A stretch of DNA of 49,750 nt from a virus, in the IMG/VR virus record IMGVR_UViG_3300022920_000011, positions 1 through 49,750 of that record. One strand, given 5' to 3'. The notes beneath the pieces were generated by a model. The model was not told where the DNA came from and made no database searches. It saw only the letters and a program-made list of their open reading frames with translations. Of this stretch, positions 8,667-37,759 are shown one piece after another; the stretch's first letter is position 1; each line of letters starts with the position of its first letter. The position numbers were made by a program, and so were the translations under genes.

Positions 8667-9459
8667 GTGATCCATTTGTTTTTGTGTACACAGGGCGTAA
8701 AAATCTTAAATTGCTGTTAAAGCTAAACGGTTCGATACCAGTAAAGTTAGTAAAGTAATGAAAATAATCTTGTACACCAAGCTCAATCTTAAACCAATCA
8801 TCTTCTGTTGGTGCTGGGCTTGCAGTACCTTCAATAAAGAAGTTACCAGTAAAATCAGTTGCATATGTTCCTACTGTTACCAGGCCTGATGACTTATCAT
8901 AATATCCTGGACCCATCATTATATCACCATAAAATTTATCGTTTTGTTCTATAAAATTTGATACAATTTGGGTGTTTAATGGAATGTATCCTGCACTTGT
9001 AGTTACTTCAACTACATGGCCTGGACGCATGTTTGTATCGCTAAACAGTGGCTTTGTTAATCCACGAGTATCAGTGTAACTTAATACAATTTCATATAAT
9101 CCTGGCTCAATACTTGACACTTTTTCACTGCGAACATAAAACATAATAAGTCCAGATTTGTAATCAACTACTTCGCATTTTCTACTTAGTATTGAACTAT
9201 TAGTAACTGTGTTAATAATTGTTGCAGTAATTTCCATACCACGCAAATCAAAAGGTTTACTGTTTTGTGTTTTTACATAGTAGAAGAACTCATTGTCGAA
9301 TCCTTTATAAAGCATTTGCTTTCTGTAATTCAATGGGGCATTGATTGTGGTTGCACGTGAGCTGGTGTATTTGCTTAAACCTGCTCTATCTGTTTGTGTA
9401 TCAAGTGCATATAAATCGCCTGCCTGATTAATGTTGTAACTTGTGTTATAGTTGCTCAT
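8641..9459 (-). CDS. Putative structural protein, baseplate-upper-protein-like N-terminus
   Basis: A 272-aa, mostly beta-strand protein with no catalytic motifs. Residues about 55-150 read like an Ig-like or BppU-type domain: a strand FFYYVKTQ, FDLRGMEITATI, CEVVDYKSGLIMFYV, then EPGLYEIVLSYTD. Such domains occur in baseplate and tail proteins of marine phages. The C-terminal part (about 165-272) is another beta region with aromatic residues. It has a GGAG site and a late promoter at 9479-9486, which supports a virion role. A baseplate or tail accessory protein is the best guess. Confidence 0.6.
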   Translation of the reverse strand: MSNYNTSYNINQAGDLYALDTQTDRAGLSKYTSSRATTINAPLNYRKQMLYKGFDNEFFYYVKTQNSKPFDLRGMEITATIINTVTNSSILSRKCEVVDYKSGLIMFYVRSEKVSSIEPGLYEIVLSYTDTRGLTKPLFSDTNMRPGHVVEVTTSAGYIPLNTQIVSNFIEQNDKFYGDIMMGPGYYDKSSGLVTVGTYATDFTGNFFIEGTASPAPTEDDWFKIELGVQDYFHYFTNFTGIEPFSFNSNLRFLRPVYTKTNGSLDKVVIRV

Positions 9460-9478
9460 ATTAGTCTCCTACTATAGA

Positions 9479-9486
9479 TATTTATC
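9479..9486 (-). promoter_or_regulatory. Late promoter, GATAAATA
   Basis: Minus-strand GATAAATA just upstream of the structural gene starting at 9459. It is divergent from the plus-strand TATAAATA at 9510, with 23 bases between them. Confidence 0.6.
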
Positions 9487-30682: not shown

Positions 30683-33058
30683 TTATAATTCGCCTGTATT
30701 AACAATACGTACTGGGATGTAGATAAATTCAGCTGACTTAGTCGGCTCAATTGCTACGTCTACCCATAGCTCGTTACGATCAATACGTGCTGGTGTGTTG
30801 TTTGATTCATCACATGCTACTGCGAAGTCATATACACCACGTTGTGACAAAATGTTACCCATAAAGCCAACAAATGTGCCTTTTACGTTTTTACGTGTGC
30901 CTTCATCATTTGGTTCGAATAGGTATGGACGAGCAATAACTTCGAAACGTTCACGCAAGTAAGCTGATAGACGTGCTACATTAACACGATCCAATGCACT
31001 TGCACCTGCTGCTAGTGTTTTCTGACCAAATACAACAATACCTTCTGCTGGGAATCTTGCGATTGGGTTAAGTTTTGCTTCATACATTGTGTCACGTGAG
31101 CCTTGGCTTAGTGATACTGGAACAAAGTCACCTTCTGCATTTACATAACCAACGTTTGATGCATTTTGTACTGAACCACGTGTTAGGCCTGCTGGAGCAA
31201 ACCATTGGAAACTTACATTATCGTTGTATGCATATGTGTATAGAATTGAGTGTGATGCTGGTGCAACTACACTTGCGCCTGATGTTGGATCAGTTGCTAA
31301 TACACTTGGATAGTATGTTGCTGCATATGTGTTTTTACCTACTAGACCGTCTACACCATTTTCTACTGCATTAGTACCTTGTACCCATGCTACTGCTTCT
31401 GATGGTGCTAGTGTTAGTGGAGTATCAACAATTACAAATGCTGTTTCGTTACGATCTGCATTTAATGCTGTCATTTCATCGAACATTTCTGGATAACCAG
31501 GTGCTGCGATTAGACGGAATTGAATGTTATCTTCACGTAGATCTGAACTACTTGCACTTGCTTGCATTGCATTAACTGCTACTGCTCTTTGTGCTGATGC
31601 ACCAAATGAACCTGCGCCGTTAGCTTGATTGCTTGCTAGGTTACGCCATTTCCATGCTGTTGCTAATGAACTGTCGTATACACGAACAGTACCACCTGAA
31701 CGACACATGTTAATGCCTGTTGTACCTACTGGGAATATTAATGGATTTGGACCATTTTCTAACTCAGTTGCTAGGAATGTACCTGCTGCTTGATCTAAGT
31801 CAGTAATATCGCCAAATGCAACGCCGTTTGATGTTGATTGATCTGTATTATCTTTCTTAACCCATGCTGAACTATTTGAACGGTAAATTACTGGATAACC
31901 AGCTGCATCTGTATCAATCCAATAGTCGCCTACTGCGCCAACTGCTGGTGCTGATGATGAATACGCTACATTAGTTGCACGTTTCCATTTTTGTACGCCA
32001 CCGTCTAATGCTACTTCGTAAATAGCTAATTCGTCTACGTCTGCATCAAACCACATTGAACCGTCTACTGGGTTACCAGTTGGTTGTGCTGTTTGTGTAG
32101 CCATTTCAACATTGCCCCAAGCGCCACTTGCGTAACGTTTGATAGTAATACTGCCGTCAGCTACTGATAACCACAAATCACCTTCATTTAATGAACGTGC
32201 TGCGCCTGCTGAACCGTCTTGCATTATATCACTTGAGATACCTGTTGGTGCTGTACCAGAGTCATTTGCATATAGTACTGCTTGAGCAACAAAATCAGCT
32301 GCTGCTGTTGTATATTCACGGATATCAACACTTACGCCAGAACCTGGTGTAGTTATTTTTACCCAAACATCGCCTGTTGTAGGTGATGTTGGTTCACTAT
32401 AGTGAGTAGCAAATGTTACGTCATCTGCAAAGCCTGCATCCAATACGTCCCATGAGCCTGCAACGCCTTTGAAATAATTCATTGATGTTACTGAGCCAGT
32501 AACATCGATTGCTACTAGGTATGTACCGTCTACAACTGTTGTAGTTGGTGCTGCATTTGCTGTTGTTAGTTCTACTGATGGTGTTTGCTTTGACCAGCCA
32601 TTAGCTGTGTATTCAAAAATACCAAAGTCTGTGTTTGATGGGTTTAACCATTTTGTGCCTACTGCTGCAGGACCTGTTGGTTCTGATGCTTGTGGGCGTA
32701 GTGCTGTTAAGTCTAAGTCTGCACGTACAACATATGCTGCTGATGCTTGGCCTAGGAATGAATAAGCTGCTAACAATCCATAATCATTTGTTTCGTCAGC
32801 CTGTTGCACGGTACCTGATACTGTGCGAAAGTCTGTGTTGCCAAAAAATTGTGTTAGCTCACGCTGTGATGTAACCAATACTGGTTTACCAGCAAATTCT
32901 GGTTTTGTATATTTTGCAATTGTTTCTGTGCCAGTTGGATCTGCTTTGTTCGCACCAGTTGCAATGAATAACATTGGTACTGTGCCTGCTCCTGCTGATC
33001 CGTATACTGACTCGTCTACGATGCTAACCTGTACTCCAGGTGATACTAGATTTGCCAT
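30683..33058 (-). CDS. gp18: Contractile tail sheath protein gp18 with tandem insert modules
   Basis: A 791-aa sheath protein (T4 gp18 is 659 aa). The N-terminus MANLVSPGVQVSIVDESVYG and the C-terminal half (ALNADRNETAFVIVDTPL, RFPAEGIVVFGQKTLA, VNVARLSAYLRERFEVIARP) are clearly sheath. Between residues about 127 and 402 there is a large insert made of five or six copies of a beta module with the pattern P-x-x-G-D-x-W followed by Y-x-x-x-x-W. These probably stick out from the tail surface. It has a TATAAATA late promoter at 33128-33135 and ends at a strong terminator. Confidence 0.93.
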   Translation of the reverse strand: MANLVSPGVQVSIVDESVYGSAGAGTVPMLFIATGANKADPTGTETIAKYTKPEFAGKPVLVTSQRELTQFFGNTDFRTVSGTVQQADETNDYGLLAAYSFLGQASAAYVVRADLDLTALRPQASEPTGPAAVGTKWLNPSNTDFGIFEYTANGWSKQTPSVELTTANAAPTTTVVDGTYLVAIDVTGSVTSMNYFKGVAGSWDVLDAGFADDVTFATHYSEPTSPTTGDVWVKITTPGSGVSVDIREYTTAAADFVAQAVLYANDSGTAPTGISSDIMQDGSAGAARSLNEGDLWLSVADGSITIKRYASGAWGNVEMATQTAQPTGNPVDGSMWFDADVDELAIYEVALDGGVQKWKRATNVAYSSSAPAVGAVGDYWIDTDAAGYPVIYRSNSSAWVKKDNTDQSTSNGVAFGDITDLDQAAGTFLATELENGPNPLIFPVGTTGINMCRSGGTVRVYDSSLATAWKWRNLASNQANGAGSFGASAQRAVAVNAMQASASSSDLREDNIQFRLIAAPGYPEMFDEMTALNADRNETAFVIVDTPLTLAPSEAVAWVQGTNAVENGVDGLVGKNTYAATYYPSVLATDPTSGASVVAPASHSILYTYAYNDNVSFQWFAPAGLTRGSVQNASNVGYVNAEGDFVPVSLSQGSRDTMYEAKLNPIARFPAEGIVVFGQKTLAAGASALDRVNVARLSAYLRERFEVIARPYLFEPNDEGTRKNVKGTFVGFMGNILSQRGVYDFAVACDESNNTPARIDRNELWVDVAIEPTKSAEFIYIPVRIVNTGEL

Positions 33059-33127
33059 AAGGGAGTCTCCTTTTTTTAATACTCTTCTTTTACATGTAAT
33101 AGAATTATATCATAATAATCCTAACTG

Positions 33128-33135
33128 TATTTATA
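33128..33135 (-). promoter_or_regulatory. Late promoter of gp18, TATAAATA
   Basis: A perfect minus-strand TATAAATA between gp13 and gp18; the predicted leader is about 64 bases and ends with an AAAGGAG site. Confidence 0.7.
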
Positions 33136-33190
33136 GCAGATGGGCAGAAAAGGGGCTGATACAGAGTTATGTTAGCATTTAATAGGGGGT

Positions 33191-33928
33191 TTATCCAATA
33201 ACAAAGCCTAAACCAGTACTACCATCATTATACAATGTTAGCTCAGTTTCTAGCTTGTCAATATCTTGTTGGGCATCAGTACGTAATTGGTCTGCGTTCA
33301 TTGTAGTGCCACCTTGTGGGCCAGCAATTTGGCTAAACTTGCCACGTGCTTCGGCTAACATTAAACGTGCATGTGCAAATGCATAATCTCTAACCCATGG
33401 GCCAGCATATGTATCTTCAAGTATGTTTTGATCTGGACGATAATTATATACGGCAAGAATACATTCATCATCAGCTTTAATTTTACGATGAATAATAAGT
33501 TTATGGTCTTGTGGACGCCATGTAAACATTAATTCTGCACCAAATAAACGGCCCATTGTTTCACGATGCTGTTGTAGGAAATCAAATGATGCTAGTCCGC
33601 CACTACGGGCTGAACCTAGTAAGTATGAATTAATATATGCTGCTTGGAATGGTTCAATATCATTTCCGCTACCACTGCTTACTCCAGTTGTACGTCTATA
33701 GATATCTTTAACTTCAATTACATTGGAAGGTAATGTATACTCGCTGATGTCTGCTAGTAATGACAATGAAACGTAACTTTCTTCAACTGCATTTTCTGCA
33801 CGTTGACGGTATTTTTCTAGACTCTTTTTAACCGCCAGTTCATAATGTTCTGGGTCAAGTTCTACATCAACCATTCCGCCACCAAGGCGTAGTTCCATTT
33901 CTTTAATTAAATCATTTATAGCACTCAT
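33191..33928 (-). CDS. gp13: Neck protein gp13
   Basis: A 245-aa protein matching the T4-like neck protein gp13, which with gp14 closes the head after packaging and joins it to the tail. The N-terminus (EMELRLGGGMVDVELDPEHY) and central RPQDHKLIIHRKIKADDECI plus YNYRPDQNILEDTYAGPWVR are typical of marine gp13. The C-terminus is a helical region with an AEARGKFSQIAGPQGG segment. It is on the minus strand, whereas gp14 and gp15 are on the plus strand. Its ribosome binding site is inside an 11-bp inverted repeat that also contains the late promoter (33935-33973). Confidence 0.9.
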   Translation of the reverse strand: MSAINDLIKEMELRLGGGMVDVELDPEHYELAVKKSLEKYRQRAENAVEESYVSLSLLADISEYTLPSNVIEVKDIYRRTTGVSSGSGNDIEPFQAAYINSYLLGSARSGGLASFDFLQQHRETMGRLFGAELMFTWRPQDHKLIIHRKIKADDECILAVYNYRPDQNILEDTYAGPWVRDYAFAHARLMLAEARGKFSQIAGPQGGTTMNADQLRTDAQQDIDKLETELTLYNDGSTGLGFVIG

Positions 33929-33934
33929 GAAAAT

Positions 33935-33973
33935 ATCTCCTACTGCATGTATTTATGCCAAACAGTAGGAGAT
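33935..33973 (-). promoter_or_regulatory. RBS-hiding hairpin with late promoter in its loop
   Basis: A perfect 11-bp inverted repeat, ATCTCCTACTG (33935-33945) and CAGTAGGAGAT (33963-33973), separated by 17 bases. The loop holds the late motif GCATAAATA. The 3' arm on the minus strand contains the gp13 AGGAG site, 8 bases from the ATG. RNA read through from upstream would bury the site; RNA started at the late promoter (predicted start about 33944) lacks the 5' arm and leaves it free. Confidence 0.78.
33950..33958 (-). promoter_or_regulatory. Late promoter of gp13, GCATAAATA
   Basis: Minus-strand GCATAAATA in the loop of the 33935-33973 inverted repeat. With T4 spacing the transcript would start near 33944, at the beginning of the arm carrying the Shine-Dalgarno sequence. 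Confidence 0.72.
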
Positions 33974-33982
33974 GTTATTAGT

Positions 33983-35245
33983 TTATTTGAACACTGCTAG
34001 TAACACAACATCGTTATTGAAACGTCCATTGAGCTTAATATCAGTAGTTTTTAAGAACTCAAACTGCTTAACTGCTTTTGCTTTGGTTGTTTTCTTGTAA
34101 TTGGGCAAAACTTCCAACGGCTTACGGATTGTTTTCTGTAAACTTGTTTCTTCGTTAAAGTTAAGCAATGTTGTACCTCGAACGCCAAATCCATTTGAAT
34201 CAGAAGCTACATACAACCCTAGTTTACGGTTCTTTGTATTGAATACAACTGCGCAAACACCACCTAATAGTTTTGTGGGACTTATACTTGCGATACCATA
34301 ATCTGGATCACTAGCCTTGAACTTAAACTTGGATATAATTTGGTCTGCTGACTTCTCTTTAACTTTACGAGGCTTACGATTTACCTTTTGCTCTGCAATA
34401 ATAATGTCACATGCATTAGTAATTTTATTATACATTTCTAGACTTGCTTTAACATATGCAGTTGATAAATGTCCGTAACCTTCAGCAATTTGTTCCCAAT
34501 TGTCACGTTCAGCATCAGACATTGTTTTGAGTGCGGTTTTGTTTGGCATATCTAAAATAAGTTGCATTTCAGCTTGTTCGCTTTCATAAAACTTACGGAC
34601 AATACGTGCATGATTAGCTTTTGCACCATGCTTATGTAACATTTTAATAGGAGCAAACTTTTTAAGAGCTGCCGTATCTACTTTACTATTACGTATAAAG
34701 TCATCTACAAACTCTTCAATTTCCTCTGTCATTGCCTGACTAGCTTCAAACATTATTTGACGTATAGTAGGCTTATATACGTCTTTCTTTTTATCTTGCA
34801 CAACTGCGACTTCTTCTTTTTTAGCCATGCCGTCAGCAATAGCTGCTTCTAGCATTTCTGCAATGTATTCGTCTACAGGGCGTGGTGTGGTTGTCCCAGT
34901 ACCTGGCAGTGACACCCAATATTCTTGTGCCTTTTCATGTACACTTGGCATTCCTAAATTACGTAAACGACACTGAATAGCAACATTAGGACTAATATAC
35001 TTAGCACGTTTTGCTGCAGCGATCTGCGTTTTATCATAATTGGCATTTTTCATCCACTGGAAGATTGCAGGTGCAACATCTTTAGCATCTGCTTGATTAT
35101 AGTAAAGCCACTGAAATTTACGGACATACGTATGATACTTTTGTCCAGTCCAACGTTCGCAACCGTCAAATACTGGATCTTGAAACCCCATTTTACGATT
35201 TACTTTTTGTTTGTTAGACTTCTTTGGTACTTTTATGCCAGCCAT
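33983..35245 (-). CDS. Conserved phage hypothetical under an early promoter (420 aa)
   Basis: The start is ATG 35245 (MAGIKVPKKSNKQK) with an AGGAG site; the longer frame above runs through the promoter. The basic, Lys-rich 420-aa protein has a helical N-terminal half with many conserved-looking Trp/Tyr (ERWTGQKYHTYVRKFQWLYY). The C-terminal 120 residues are beta-rich: FKFKASDPDYGIASISPTKL, then AVVFNTKNRKLGLYVASDSN and VRGTTLLNF. I recall this C-terminal pattern from marine T4-like phages with no assigned function. It stands alone among late genes with a sigma70-type promoter, so an early DNA or host-takeover role is likely. Confidence 0.75.
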   Translation of the reverse strand: MAGIKVPKKSNKQKVNRKMGFQDPVFDGCERWTGQKYHTYVRKFQWLYYNQADAKDVAPAIFQWMKNANYDKTQIAAAKRAKYISPNVAIQCRLRNLGMPSVHEKAQEYWVSLPGTGTTTPRPVDEYIAEMLEAAIADGMAKKEEVAVVQDKKKDVYKPTIRQIMFEASQAMTEEIEEFVDDFIRNSKVDTAALKKFAPIKMLHKHGAKANHARIVRKFYESEQAEMQLILDMPNKTALKTMSDAERDNWEQIAEGYGHLSTAYVKASLEMYNKITNACDIIIAEQKVNRKPRKVKEKSADQIISKFKFKASDPDYGIASISPTKLLGGVCAVVFNTKNRKLGLYVASDSNGFGVRGTTLLNFNEETSLQKTIRKPLEVLPNYKKTTKAKAVKQFEFLKTTDIKLNGRFNNDVVLLAVFK

Positions 35246-35275
35246 TGTGTTTCTCCTATTACAAACTATGTAATG

Positions 35276-35304
35276 ACAATAATACATTTTTAAACCAATG
35301 TCAA
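35276..35304 (-). promoter_or_regulatory. Sigma70-type promoter of the 420-aa gene
   Basis: On the minus strand, -35 TTGACA (35299-35304), 17-bp spacer, -10 TATTGT (35276-35281). The predicted leader of about 24 bases carries AGGAG. It nearly touches the divergent gp14 late promoter. Confidence 0.72.
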
Positions 35305-35306
35305 TA

Positions 35307-35314
35307 GCTAAATA
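35307..35314 (+). promoter_or_regulatory. Late promoter of the gp14 cassette, GCTAAATA
   Basis: Plus-strand GCTAAATA; with T4 spacing transcription would start near 35320, giving a 14-base leader with AGAGGA before the gp14 ATG. Confidence 0.6.
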
Positions 35315-35333
35315 CATATAAGAGGAAAAAAAT

Positions 35334-36404
35334 ATGCCAAGACTAAGTTTATATAAACCAAACAAGGGAAATGACTATAAATTCATGGATAGAAATATAC
35401 GTGAACAGTTTGATATTGGTGGCACTGCGATACATATTCACAAGTATCTTGGGCCTAAAGAAAGAATCGATAGCCAAGATCCTAGTGAACCAAATTATGG
35501 AAGTGGACTTGAAGTTGATTATATAACTGGCGAAGCTATAAATCCTGAAGGTTTTATTGACGAAACTAATATCCAAGATTTATTGTTTATGGAAAACAGA
35601 GATCGTAAATATGATCCAGACATTTATGATTTGCGTGGTGTATATAATGTAAGTGATAATGACTTTGATTTAAGTCAATTTGGATTATTCCTAACTAACG
35701 ACACACTGTTTATTACATTTCATACAAATGACATGGTTGAGAAATTAGGGCGTAAAATTATGCCTGGTGATGTTTTTGAATTGCCTCACCTAAGAGAAGA
35801 ATTATTGTTAGATAATGAACGTGATGCTGTTAATAAATTTTATGTAGTTACAGATGCTAACCGCGGTAGTGAAGGTTTTAGCCAAACGTGGTTTTCACAT
35901 ATTTGGCGTGTTAAAGTATCGCCACTTACAGATACACAGGAGTATGCTGATATTTTAGGTACTGCTGAAGATCCAGATAGCTTGAAGAACAAAATTAGTA
36001 GTTATAAAACAGAATTAAACATTAGCAATGCAATTGTAGCGAGTGCTGAAGCGGCTGATCCATTAGGTATTCCGCTAATAGAACATTTGTTTGGTAAAGA
36101 TAGTAATGAAGAGCCAGAATACAATCATGGTGAAGTATTAGACAGTGGTGATCAATTTCCACAACAACCAAACGATGGCAAATATTTTATAAGAAATGAC
36201 TTTAACCCTAATAGACTATATGTATACCGCGGAAGCCGTTGGCATAGGTTATATGACAATGTTACTGATGTAACTTGGAGTGATAGAACGTATAATGCAA
36301 GTGGATTTATTAATAATGAATCAACTACTGTCATTGATAACCAAGAATTTCCTGAGCGCCAAGCTATTAGTAAAGTTATTAAACCAAAGAGTGATTTTGA
36401 ATAA
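35334..36404 (+). CDS. gp14: Neck protein gp14
   Basis: A 356-aa protein matching gp14 of marine T4-like phages, which completes the neck with gp13. The N-terminus MPRLSLYKPNKGNDYKFMDR, the segment YDLRGVYNVSDNDFDLSQFG (about 100-119), the strand TLFITFHTNDMVEKLGRKIM and PGDVFELPHLRE are characteristic. T4 gp14 is 256 aa; the extra length is mainly a C-terminal module with GKYFIRNDFNPNRLYVYRGS followed by Arg-Trp, which resembles modules in gp15 and gp18. It is first in a plus-strand unit and overlaps gp15 (TAATG). Confidence 0.88.
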   Translation: MPRLSLYKPNKGNDYKFMDRNIREQFDIGGTAIHIHKYLGPKERIDSQDPSEPNYGSGLEVDYITGEAINPEGFIDETNIQDLLFMENRDRKYDPDIYDLRGVYNVSDNDFDLSQFGLFLTNDTLFITFHTNDMVEKLGRKIMPGDVFELPHLREELLLDNERDAVNKFYVVTDANRGSEGFSQTWFSHIWRVKVSPLTDTQEYADILGTAEDPDSLKNKISSYKTELNISNAIVASAEAADPLGIPLIEHLFGKDSNEEPEYNHGEVLDSGDQFPQQPNDGKYFIRNDFNPNRLYVYRGSRWHRLYDNVTDVTWSDRTYNASGFINNESTTVIDNQEFPERQAISKVIKPKSDFE

Positions 36405-37759
36405 TGACACAACAATATTTTTACGATAAACAAGTTAGACGATATATTCAACAGTTTATAAGACTGTTTAGTGGATTCAGTGTGCAAATGGGAGTTGGTG
36501 AAGATAAACTTCCAATGTTCTTACAAGTACCTGTACGCTATGGTGATATTAACCGCATGGCTGCGCATATACAAAGAGAAAACAGTGAAAATATTACAAA
36601 CACTGTTCCTTTTATTAGTTGCTATGTTACTGATTTGTCATTAGCACCTGAGCGTAGAGTAGAACAGCAACATGTTGACAAAGTGCAAGTTTATGAGAAA
36701 AAAGTAAATGAATTAGGACAATATGAAAATGAGGTAGGAAATACTTATACTATTGAACGACATATGCCAGTGCCATATAACTTAACAATGAACTGCGATG
36801 TGTGGACATCAAACACGCACCAAAAATTACAATTATTAGAACAACTGTTAGTATTATTCAATCCAACATTAGATATTAAAACGTCAGATAATGCATTTGA
36901 TTGGAGTTCATTATCTTATGTTGAAATGACCAATATCATATGGAGTAGCCGCAGTGTTGGAAATAGCGTTGATGATATTATTGATGTTGCTACACTTACA
37001 TTTAACATTCCAATTTTTGTTAATCCACCTGCAAAGGTTAAACATCAAAGAATTATCCATACTGTATTAAACCAGTTGTATAATTTAGACGATAATAACT
37101 TAGACGACTTTAAAGAAGGATTGCCTTTTGATCAGTCAACATTAGAATATACTATTGTAACACTGGAAGGAAGGAAGCTTGAATATATAGATGGCAAGGC
37201 TACTTTGCTAGCACATAGCGGAAGTAATATTAATCCTGAAACAGGTACAATTCTAGAATGGAAAGAACACTTGAAACCGTTTGGAGAATTGCGTGAAGGT
37301 ATCAGTCAATTACGTTTAAAGAAAAACAAAGATCCAGATAGTTTAGATGGAGATATTATTGGAAGACTTGCGTATGATGATAATAATCCAAATAAATTAA
37401 TTGTAGATATTGATGCTGACACATTGCCAGCTAATACATTAGCCCCGCTCAATGGCATTGTTAATCCAGTAATAAATTTTCCTGGAGATGGCACATTGCC
37501 AGATGCAGAGCTTGGGCAACGTTATCTTCTTACACATGCCAATATTAAACAATGGGGAAGTGTAGAAGGCAATGCTCACGACATTATTGAATATAATGGC
37601 AGTGATTGGGTATTAAGCTTTACGAGTAGCACACAAGCAGATACTTCACATTTTGTATTAAATTTACTTACTCAAGATCAATTTGAATGGAATGGTGTTG
37701 AATGGGTTAATAGCTACGAAGGAATTTACAACGAAGGCTTTTGGAGGCTATATCTATAA
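36404..37759 (+). CDS. gp15: Proximal tail sheath stabilisation protein gp15
   Basis: A 451-aa protein. The start MTQQYFYDKQVRRYIQQFIR, the PVRYGDINRMAAHIQRENSE segment and the core MPVPYNLTMNCDVWTSNTHQ (about 125-144) are typical of T4 gp15, the ring that closes the top of the tail and joins the head. T4 gp15 is 272 aa. The long C-terminal extension (about 260-451) is partly beta modules with NGSDW and NGVEW-type Trp motifs, like those in the sheath insert. It is coupled to gp14 (TAATG) and followed immediately by the Nudix gene. Confidence 0.9.
   Translation: MTQQYFYDKQVRRYIQQFIRLFSGFSVQMGVGEDKLPMFLQVPVRYGDINRMAAHIQRENSENITNTVPFISCYVTDLSLAPERRVEQQHVDKVQVYEKKVNELGQYENEVGNTYTIERHMPVPYNLTMNCDVWTSNTHQKLQLLEQLLVLFNPTLDIKTSDNAFDWSSLSYVEMTNIIWSSRSVGNSVDDIIDVATLTFNIPIFVNPPAKVKHQRIIHTVLNQLYNLDDNNLDDFKEGLPFDQSTLEYTIVTLEGRKLEYIDGKATLLAHSGSNINPETGTILEWKEHLKPFGELREGISQLRLKKNKDPDSLDGDIIGRLAYDDNNPNKLIVDIDADTLPANTLAPLNGIVNPVINFPGDGTLPDAELGQRYLLTHANIKQWGSVEGNAHDIIEYNGSDWVLSFTSSTQADTSHFVLNLLTQDQFEWNGVEWVNSYEGIYNEGFWRLYL

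Follow-up and report, generated by a model that had tools for sequence, protein, structure and literature searches.

The virus genome record studied here carries a T4-type late promoter motif between the two arms of an inverted repeat, and the arm closer to the neck gene gp13 contains the Shine-Dalgarno sequence of that gene. The question that this locus raises is whether the repeat acts as an RNA switch of the kind demonstrated for gene e of phage T4, where repression is reported to be approximately 100-fold (PMC3014915). An earlier note on the window (the whole stretch of DNA that was analyzed, 49,750 nt in length) had read the locus in this way. Our sequence-level analysis largely supports that interpretation, and we consider it likely that the gp13 ribosome site is hidden by an RNA hairpin that is split by a late promoter, as in T4 gene e.

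Organization of the gp13 leader

The genes and signals of the leader are as follows:

33191-33928, minus strand: gp13-type neck gene, head-tail adaptor Ad2 (phrog_211, E 2.3e-31)
33932-33945, minus strand: 3' arm of the hairpin, CAGTAGGAGATATT, with its perfect part at 33935-33945
33937-33941, minus strand: gp13 Shine-Dalgarno sequence AGGAG, within the 3' arm (read from the sequence)
33944, minus strand: predicted late transcription start, placed by T4 spacing (PMC2988020)
33950-33958, minus strand: late promoter motif GCATAAATA in the hairpin loop (read from the sequence)
33963-33976, minus strand: 5' arm, anti-Shine-Dalgarno CATCTCCTACTG, with its perfect part at 33963-33973; predicted to fold onto the Shine-Dalgarno region of gp13
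33983-35245, minus strand: upstream gene, 420 aa (phrog_11903, E 1.9e-51), with its start at 35245
35276-35304, minus strand: sigma70-like promoter of the upstream gene, TTGACA-17-TATTGT (promoter scan, 10/12)

Read on the minus strand, the order before the gp13 start is 5'-AACATCTCCTACTG TTTGGCATAAATACATG CAGTAGGAGATATTTTC ATG, with 8 nt between AGGAG and the ATG at 33928. A repeat finder recovered the perfect 11-bp inverted repeat that had been described previously (33935-33945 and 33963-33973), with its arms 17 nt apart, and found 93% complementarity over 14 nt when the arms were extended (33932-33976). The late motif does lie between the arms as claimed (minus strand 33958-33950), and AGGAG was likewise located in the 3' arm (minus strand 33941-33937). 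In T4 late promoters, approximately one helical turn separates the TATA box from the start (PMC2988020), and this spacing predicts initiation near 33944, as the earlier note had proposed.

The isolated gp13 hairpin has a predicted folding energy of -20.5 kcal/mol. A 111-nt minus-strand fold around it gave z = -1.87, which makes the region overall just mildly unusual; the local stem is what stands out. Based on 100 dinucleotide shuffles, perfect 11-bp repeats with a spacer of 3-30 nt are expected 0.60 times per window, or 0.06 times if the arm has to contain 5 G+C or more. The real window contains the gp13 repeat, which has 5 G+C, plus a few perfect repeats with 0-4 G+C. That the loop also contains a late box, and the arm a Shine-Dalgarno sequence, makes a chance origin even less likely. 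ATAAATA itself is not over-represented in the window (18 sites, with 25.8 expected), so that its meaning rests on its position, and the minus-strand sites are found mostly just 5' of gene starts. An Rfam search of 33000-36000 returned just one weak miRNA match, far under the cutoff.

The gene upstream of gp13 had been claimed to have an early promoter. A candidate promoter of the TTGACA type is indeed present, and of 41 distinct relatives, 20 have TTGACA at the corresponding position, as counted by eye, while the sigma70 promoter scan as a whole was at chance level. Beyond the upstream gene, a virion structural gene is found at 35334 in the opposite direction; in the L201 family, gp13 is directly faced by a gene that begins identically (MPRLSLYK). 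Searching the phage collection at the nucleotide level with gp13 and the upstream gene gave no match. The 49.75-kb record, possibly a fragment, yielded no sigma factor of Pfam family PF04542, and this was counted against the switch.

Predicted folding and comparison with known switches

To score leaders, we used the cost of freeing the Shine-Dalgarno sequence, both in a long RNA reaching 90 nt upstream and in a short RNA whose 5' end is placed according to the late box (paired values below are given as long/short). For gp13 of the window, the predicted opening cost is 12.6 kcal/mol in read-through RNA and 1.3 kcal/mol in the predicted late RNA, which is the largest difference among the late genes of the window that were scored. 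The predicted folding fits the block and release of translation that had been proposed: the long RNA would lock the site in a stable stem and the short one would leave it free, and the T4-type late box is placed such that RNA from the inferred start would lack the 5' arm. Another late gene leader in the window (9459-9485, minus strand) shows a moderate difference, at 6.0/2.2 kcal/mol.

The same kind of script gave 13.7/0.8 kcal/mol for T4 gene e, nearly the same opening costs as for gp13, indicating that the method recognizes the known case. T4 soc, at 1.7/1.0 kcal/mol, was missed by the Shine-Dalgarno measure, because the predicted pairing in soc, unlike that in gp13, is over the start codon. 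The earlier note had named e and soc as T4 precedents; the literature agrees on both (PMC3014915), while the energetics recovered e and not soc.

Gene e resembles gp13 of the window in having its Shine-Dalgarno sequence in the 3' arm and a late box between the arms (PMC3014915). Its late RNA lacks the 5' arm, as is predicted for gp13, and e has internal late promoters. Gene e is a lysis gene, however, whereas gene 13 of the window is a neck gene. T4 soc and gene 49 are also late genes, whose start region is blocked on longer transcripts (PMC3014915), in which they resemble what is predicted for gp13. The leader hairpins of I-TevI, I-TevII, I-TevIII, segB, and Aeh1 mobE, of which late RNA alone is translated, share with gp13 the arrangement of late box and ribosome site (PMC2988022), but these leaders control homing endonucleases, whereas gp13 is a virion assembly gene.

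gp13 leaders in marine and metagenomic relatives

A total of 80 gp13 loci were collected through protein similarity. Nearly all window-type relatives shown carry an ATAAATA or TAAATA box before gp13. Retention of arm pairing in close relatives, which the earlier note had set as a test, was seen in the closest relative (L002) and in L017, in which TCCTGCTA/TAGCAGGA replaces TCCTACTG/CAGTAGGA, altering both arms; most other marine relatives, at approximately 80% gp13 identity, are without the full hairpin. L006/L096 and L157/L162 instead carry an intrinsic terminator whose end adjoins the late box; in L020/L023/L024, a separate hairpin, GGGGACAC, is present. These elements look like other means to stop upstream transcription from yielding gp13.

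A long-short difference of at least 7 kcal/mol was found for 21 of 219 metagenomic gp13 leaders, compared to 3 of 95 other late genes; judged by sequence, the top entries of this control list resemble homing endonucleases, GIY-YIG-like ones included. A rank test between gp13 and the other late genes gave p = 2e-6, a value that is overstated, as the sequences are related and three families entered through pattern-scan hits. By these predicted energies, gp13 is enriched for the split hairpin, though not uniformly.

Other repeats were seen before gp13 as well. Many leaders in the L175 family (L448-L527) contain a compact repeat around the Shine-Dalgarno sequence, such as GGGGAC-GGA-GTCCCC; its 5' part comes after the late box but ahead of the expected start, and by eye the variants differ on both sides. 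In L008-type loci, a perfect 7-bp repeat (TACTATG-ATAAATA-CATAGTA) flanks the late box, with the Shine-Dalgarno sequence not wholly covered. The inverted repeat of the L201 family was not counted as strong support, since it consists partly of two divergent late boxes, with gp13 and a gp14-like gene head to head.

Two DNA patterns composed of an anti-Shine-Dalgarno, a late box, and a Shine-Dalgarno sequence, with no gene named, were also scanned against IMG/VR. Of the matches listed, 35 had a stem of 10 bp or more in front of a gene, and in 12 of these the gene was of the gp13 type. The gp13 matches listed came from the window clade (L087, L091, L092), L175, and the L218/L224 group; stems in the L201 group were weaker than those of the other gp13 groups. 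The other genes among the matches listed included HNH-type and nuclease genes, and use of the split-hairpin device by homing endonucleases is already on record (PMC2988022).

The scans also brought up strong split hairpins, of 14-16 bp, before a gene with a CxxC-type start (L084:1170-2474, minus strand), a phrog_3060 gene (L088:2397-3662, minus strand), and an SNase-like nuclease gene (L195:9171-9611, plus strand). At L240:4759-5451 (minus strand), an ORF for a homing endonuclease (NUMOD3, phrog_655) is found directly behind the gp13 hairpin and Shine-Dalgarno sequence. This ORF has the first residues of gp13 (MATITN), and a separate gp13 start follows; the endonuclease has apparently appropriated the signals for gp13 expression.

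gp13 leaders in cultured jumbo phages

Split hairpins were found at gp13 relatives in the phage collection, in a range of cultured jumbo phages: GAP32, CBB, XbC2, Kaldavass, and SNUABM_19 (CCCCTAAA..TTTAGGGG), XaC1 (CCTCTAAA..TTTAGAGG), Munch and fENko-Kae01 (GCACCCCTAT..ATAGGGGTGC), and Hallingskeid, 121Q, K64-1 and RaK2 (GCACCTC..GAGGTGC). In the six that were tested, opening costs ranged from 13.4 to 17.8 kcal/mol for the long RNA and from 0.2 to 3.4 kcal/mol for the short RNA, while PA5oct and Vibrio phage 2.275.O gave just 4.8/1.5 and 5.2/2.7 kcal/mol, respectively. Whole-genome scans ranked gp13 second of 62 late-type genes in GAP32 and among the top three of 67 in 121Q. In the jumbo phages, the arm always covers the Shine-Dalgarno sequence. 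Several of their hairpins are followed by a U-tract, such as GGGGTATTTTTTATG in GAP32, which suggests that they may double as terminators; a comparison of T-runs in jumbo late genes was discarded because of its poor stem criterion.

The genome paper of CBB gives ATAAATA as the late motif, and a term search turned up no mention of a hairpin or stem-loop in it (PMC5259590). Nor was any report of such a switch at a neck gene or gene 13 found in the literature searched, most subscription journals being outside its scope. This agrees with the novelty that the earlier note had claimed for a neck gene in marine T4-like phages, but the design is not specific to marine phages, as the same split hairpin occurs at gp13 in freshwater and cultured jumbo phages. 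The putative gp13 switch is more widespread than the note had supposed.

Several other late genes of these phages also have split hairpins or large long-short differences. The orthologous KTSC-domain genes (phrog_8113) of GAP32 (L561:15913-16443; GAP32 235913) and 121Q (L569:15078-15620; 121Q 35078) scored 14.1/1.5 and 13.6/0.7 kcal/mol, respectively, with two-sided change between the phages. Large differences were also seen for tail-sheath-like genes, at 11.0/3.6 in GAP32 (L555:17516; GAP32 117516) and 14.8/2.3 in 121Q (L581:2851; 121Q 262851). In GAP32, the scan found its strongest split hairpin, CCCCTAAAT..AGGGG (16.3/2.4), at a virion structural gene, phrog_16530 (L550:16348-16866).

Covariation of the hairpin arms

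As MAFFT misaligned the arms when applied to whole metagenomic leaders, the arms were anchored by hand and joined through a fixed spacer. The 15 distinct arm sets from jumbo phages showed 86.7% pairing and 21 cells altered on both sides, compared to 6.6 in shuffles. Their covariation score of 0.297 was reached by none of 500 shuffles, and dropped to 0.07 or less when the partner was slid by one base. One arm position was found as U-A, C-G, and A-U. The nine arm sets from the window and metagenomic loci showed 93.5% pairing and 14 two-sided cells, compared to 5.8 in shuffles; again, 0 of 500 shuffles reached the score, which was lost on a one-base slide. In this second set, the six core pairs out of 12 were fixed by the search pattern for most members, leaving the remaining six positions as the source of the signal. 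Neither set had more pair types than its shuffles. Since related sequences can exceed shuffles, the slid controls weigh more. Both sets, and the comparison of L017 with the window, indicate that pairing is kept through compensatory change.

Alternative explanations

The hairpin could be mainly a terminator or 3'-end protector of the upstream gene, in which a late promoter is embedded and the hiding of the ribosome site is a by-product. The clear intrinsic terminators that end at the late box in L006/L096 and L157/L162 fit this explanation, as do the jumbo phage stems with a U-tract. The stem of the window, however, is followed by just ATATTTTC and closes a 17-nt loop, and does not show the G+C-rich stem, short loop, and U-tract of an intrinsic terminator; a scan covering loops of 3-8 nt called no minus-strand terminator in 33000-36500. 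L218-type hairpins also have no U-tract. In addition, termination leaves unexplained the exact overlap of arm and Shine-Dalgarno sequence in the jumbo phages, which were fetched by protein similarity, and we regard this explanation as unlikely.

Two further explanations appear less probable still. The symmetry of the arms around the late box would suit a palindrome acting on the late promoter at the DNA level, as a protein-binding dyad or a cruciform with no RNA switch, and covariation alone cannot separate DNA pairing from RNA pairing. A fixed protein site would not be expected to vary in sequence between lineages with its pairing kept, however, nor does a palindrome account for the constant position of the jumbo phage arm over the Shine-Dalgarno sequence, and we give it very little credence. 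Translational coupling, by which ribosomes ending the upstream gene would open the hairpin and allow joint production of gp13 and the upstream protein, is suggested by the upstream stop codon, just 6 nt before the extended 5' arm. Yet when a ribosome was modelled on this codon, the predicted opening cost was still 9.8 kcal/mol, and coupling leaves the late box inside the hairpin unexplained, making it highly improbable.

Implications for gene 13 expression

In the promoter-split switch that we favor for gp13, transcripts from the upstream sigma70-type promoter would run into gp13 early in infection, and the hairpin in this read-through RNA would block translation. Late RNA polymerase would then start inside the hairpin, near 33944, omitting the 5' arm; as the late RNA would lack this arm, gp13 would be made only late. 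Some lineages may silence gp13 early in infection through a terminator in this position, and in jumbo phages, the hairpin may both terminate transcription and block translation.

More broadly, promoter-split RNA switches may recur at gene 13 throughout T4-like and jumbo phages, different lineages having gained the hairpin, rebuilt it, or replaced it by a terminator. We put this forward tentatively, as somewhat short of an even chance. If so, neck protein made early would be harmful or wasteful and would have to be shut off, and jumbo phages would combine a terminator, a translation block, and a late promoter in one element. Covariation supports the switch in cultured phages (121Q, GAP32, CBB, Munch, K64-1). 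A textbook T4 device that serves lysis, capsid-decoration, and mobile genes would be extended to a neck gene, and the same sequence signature would make it simple to look for further switches in phages that have not been cultured. The finding bears on why phages would keep their head-tail joining protein silent early.
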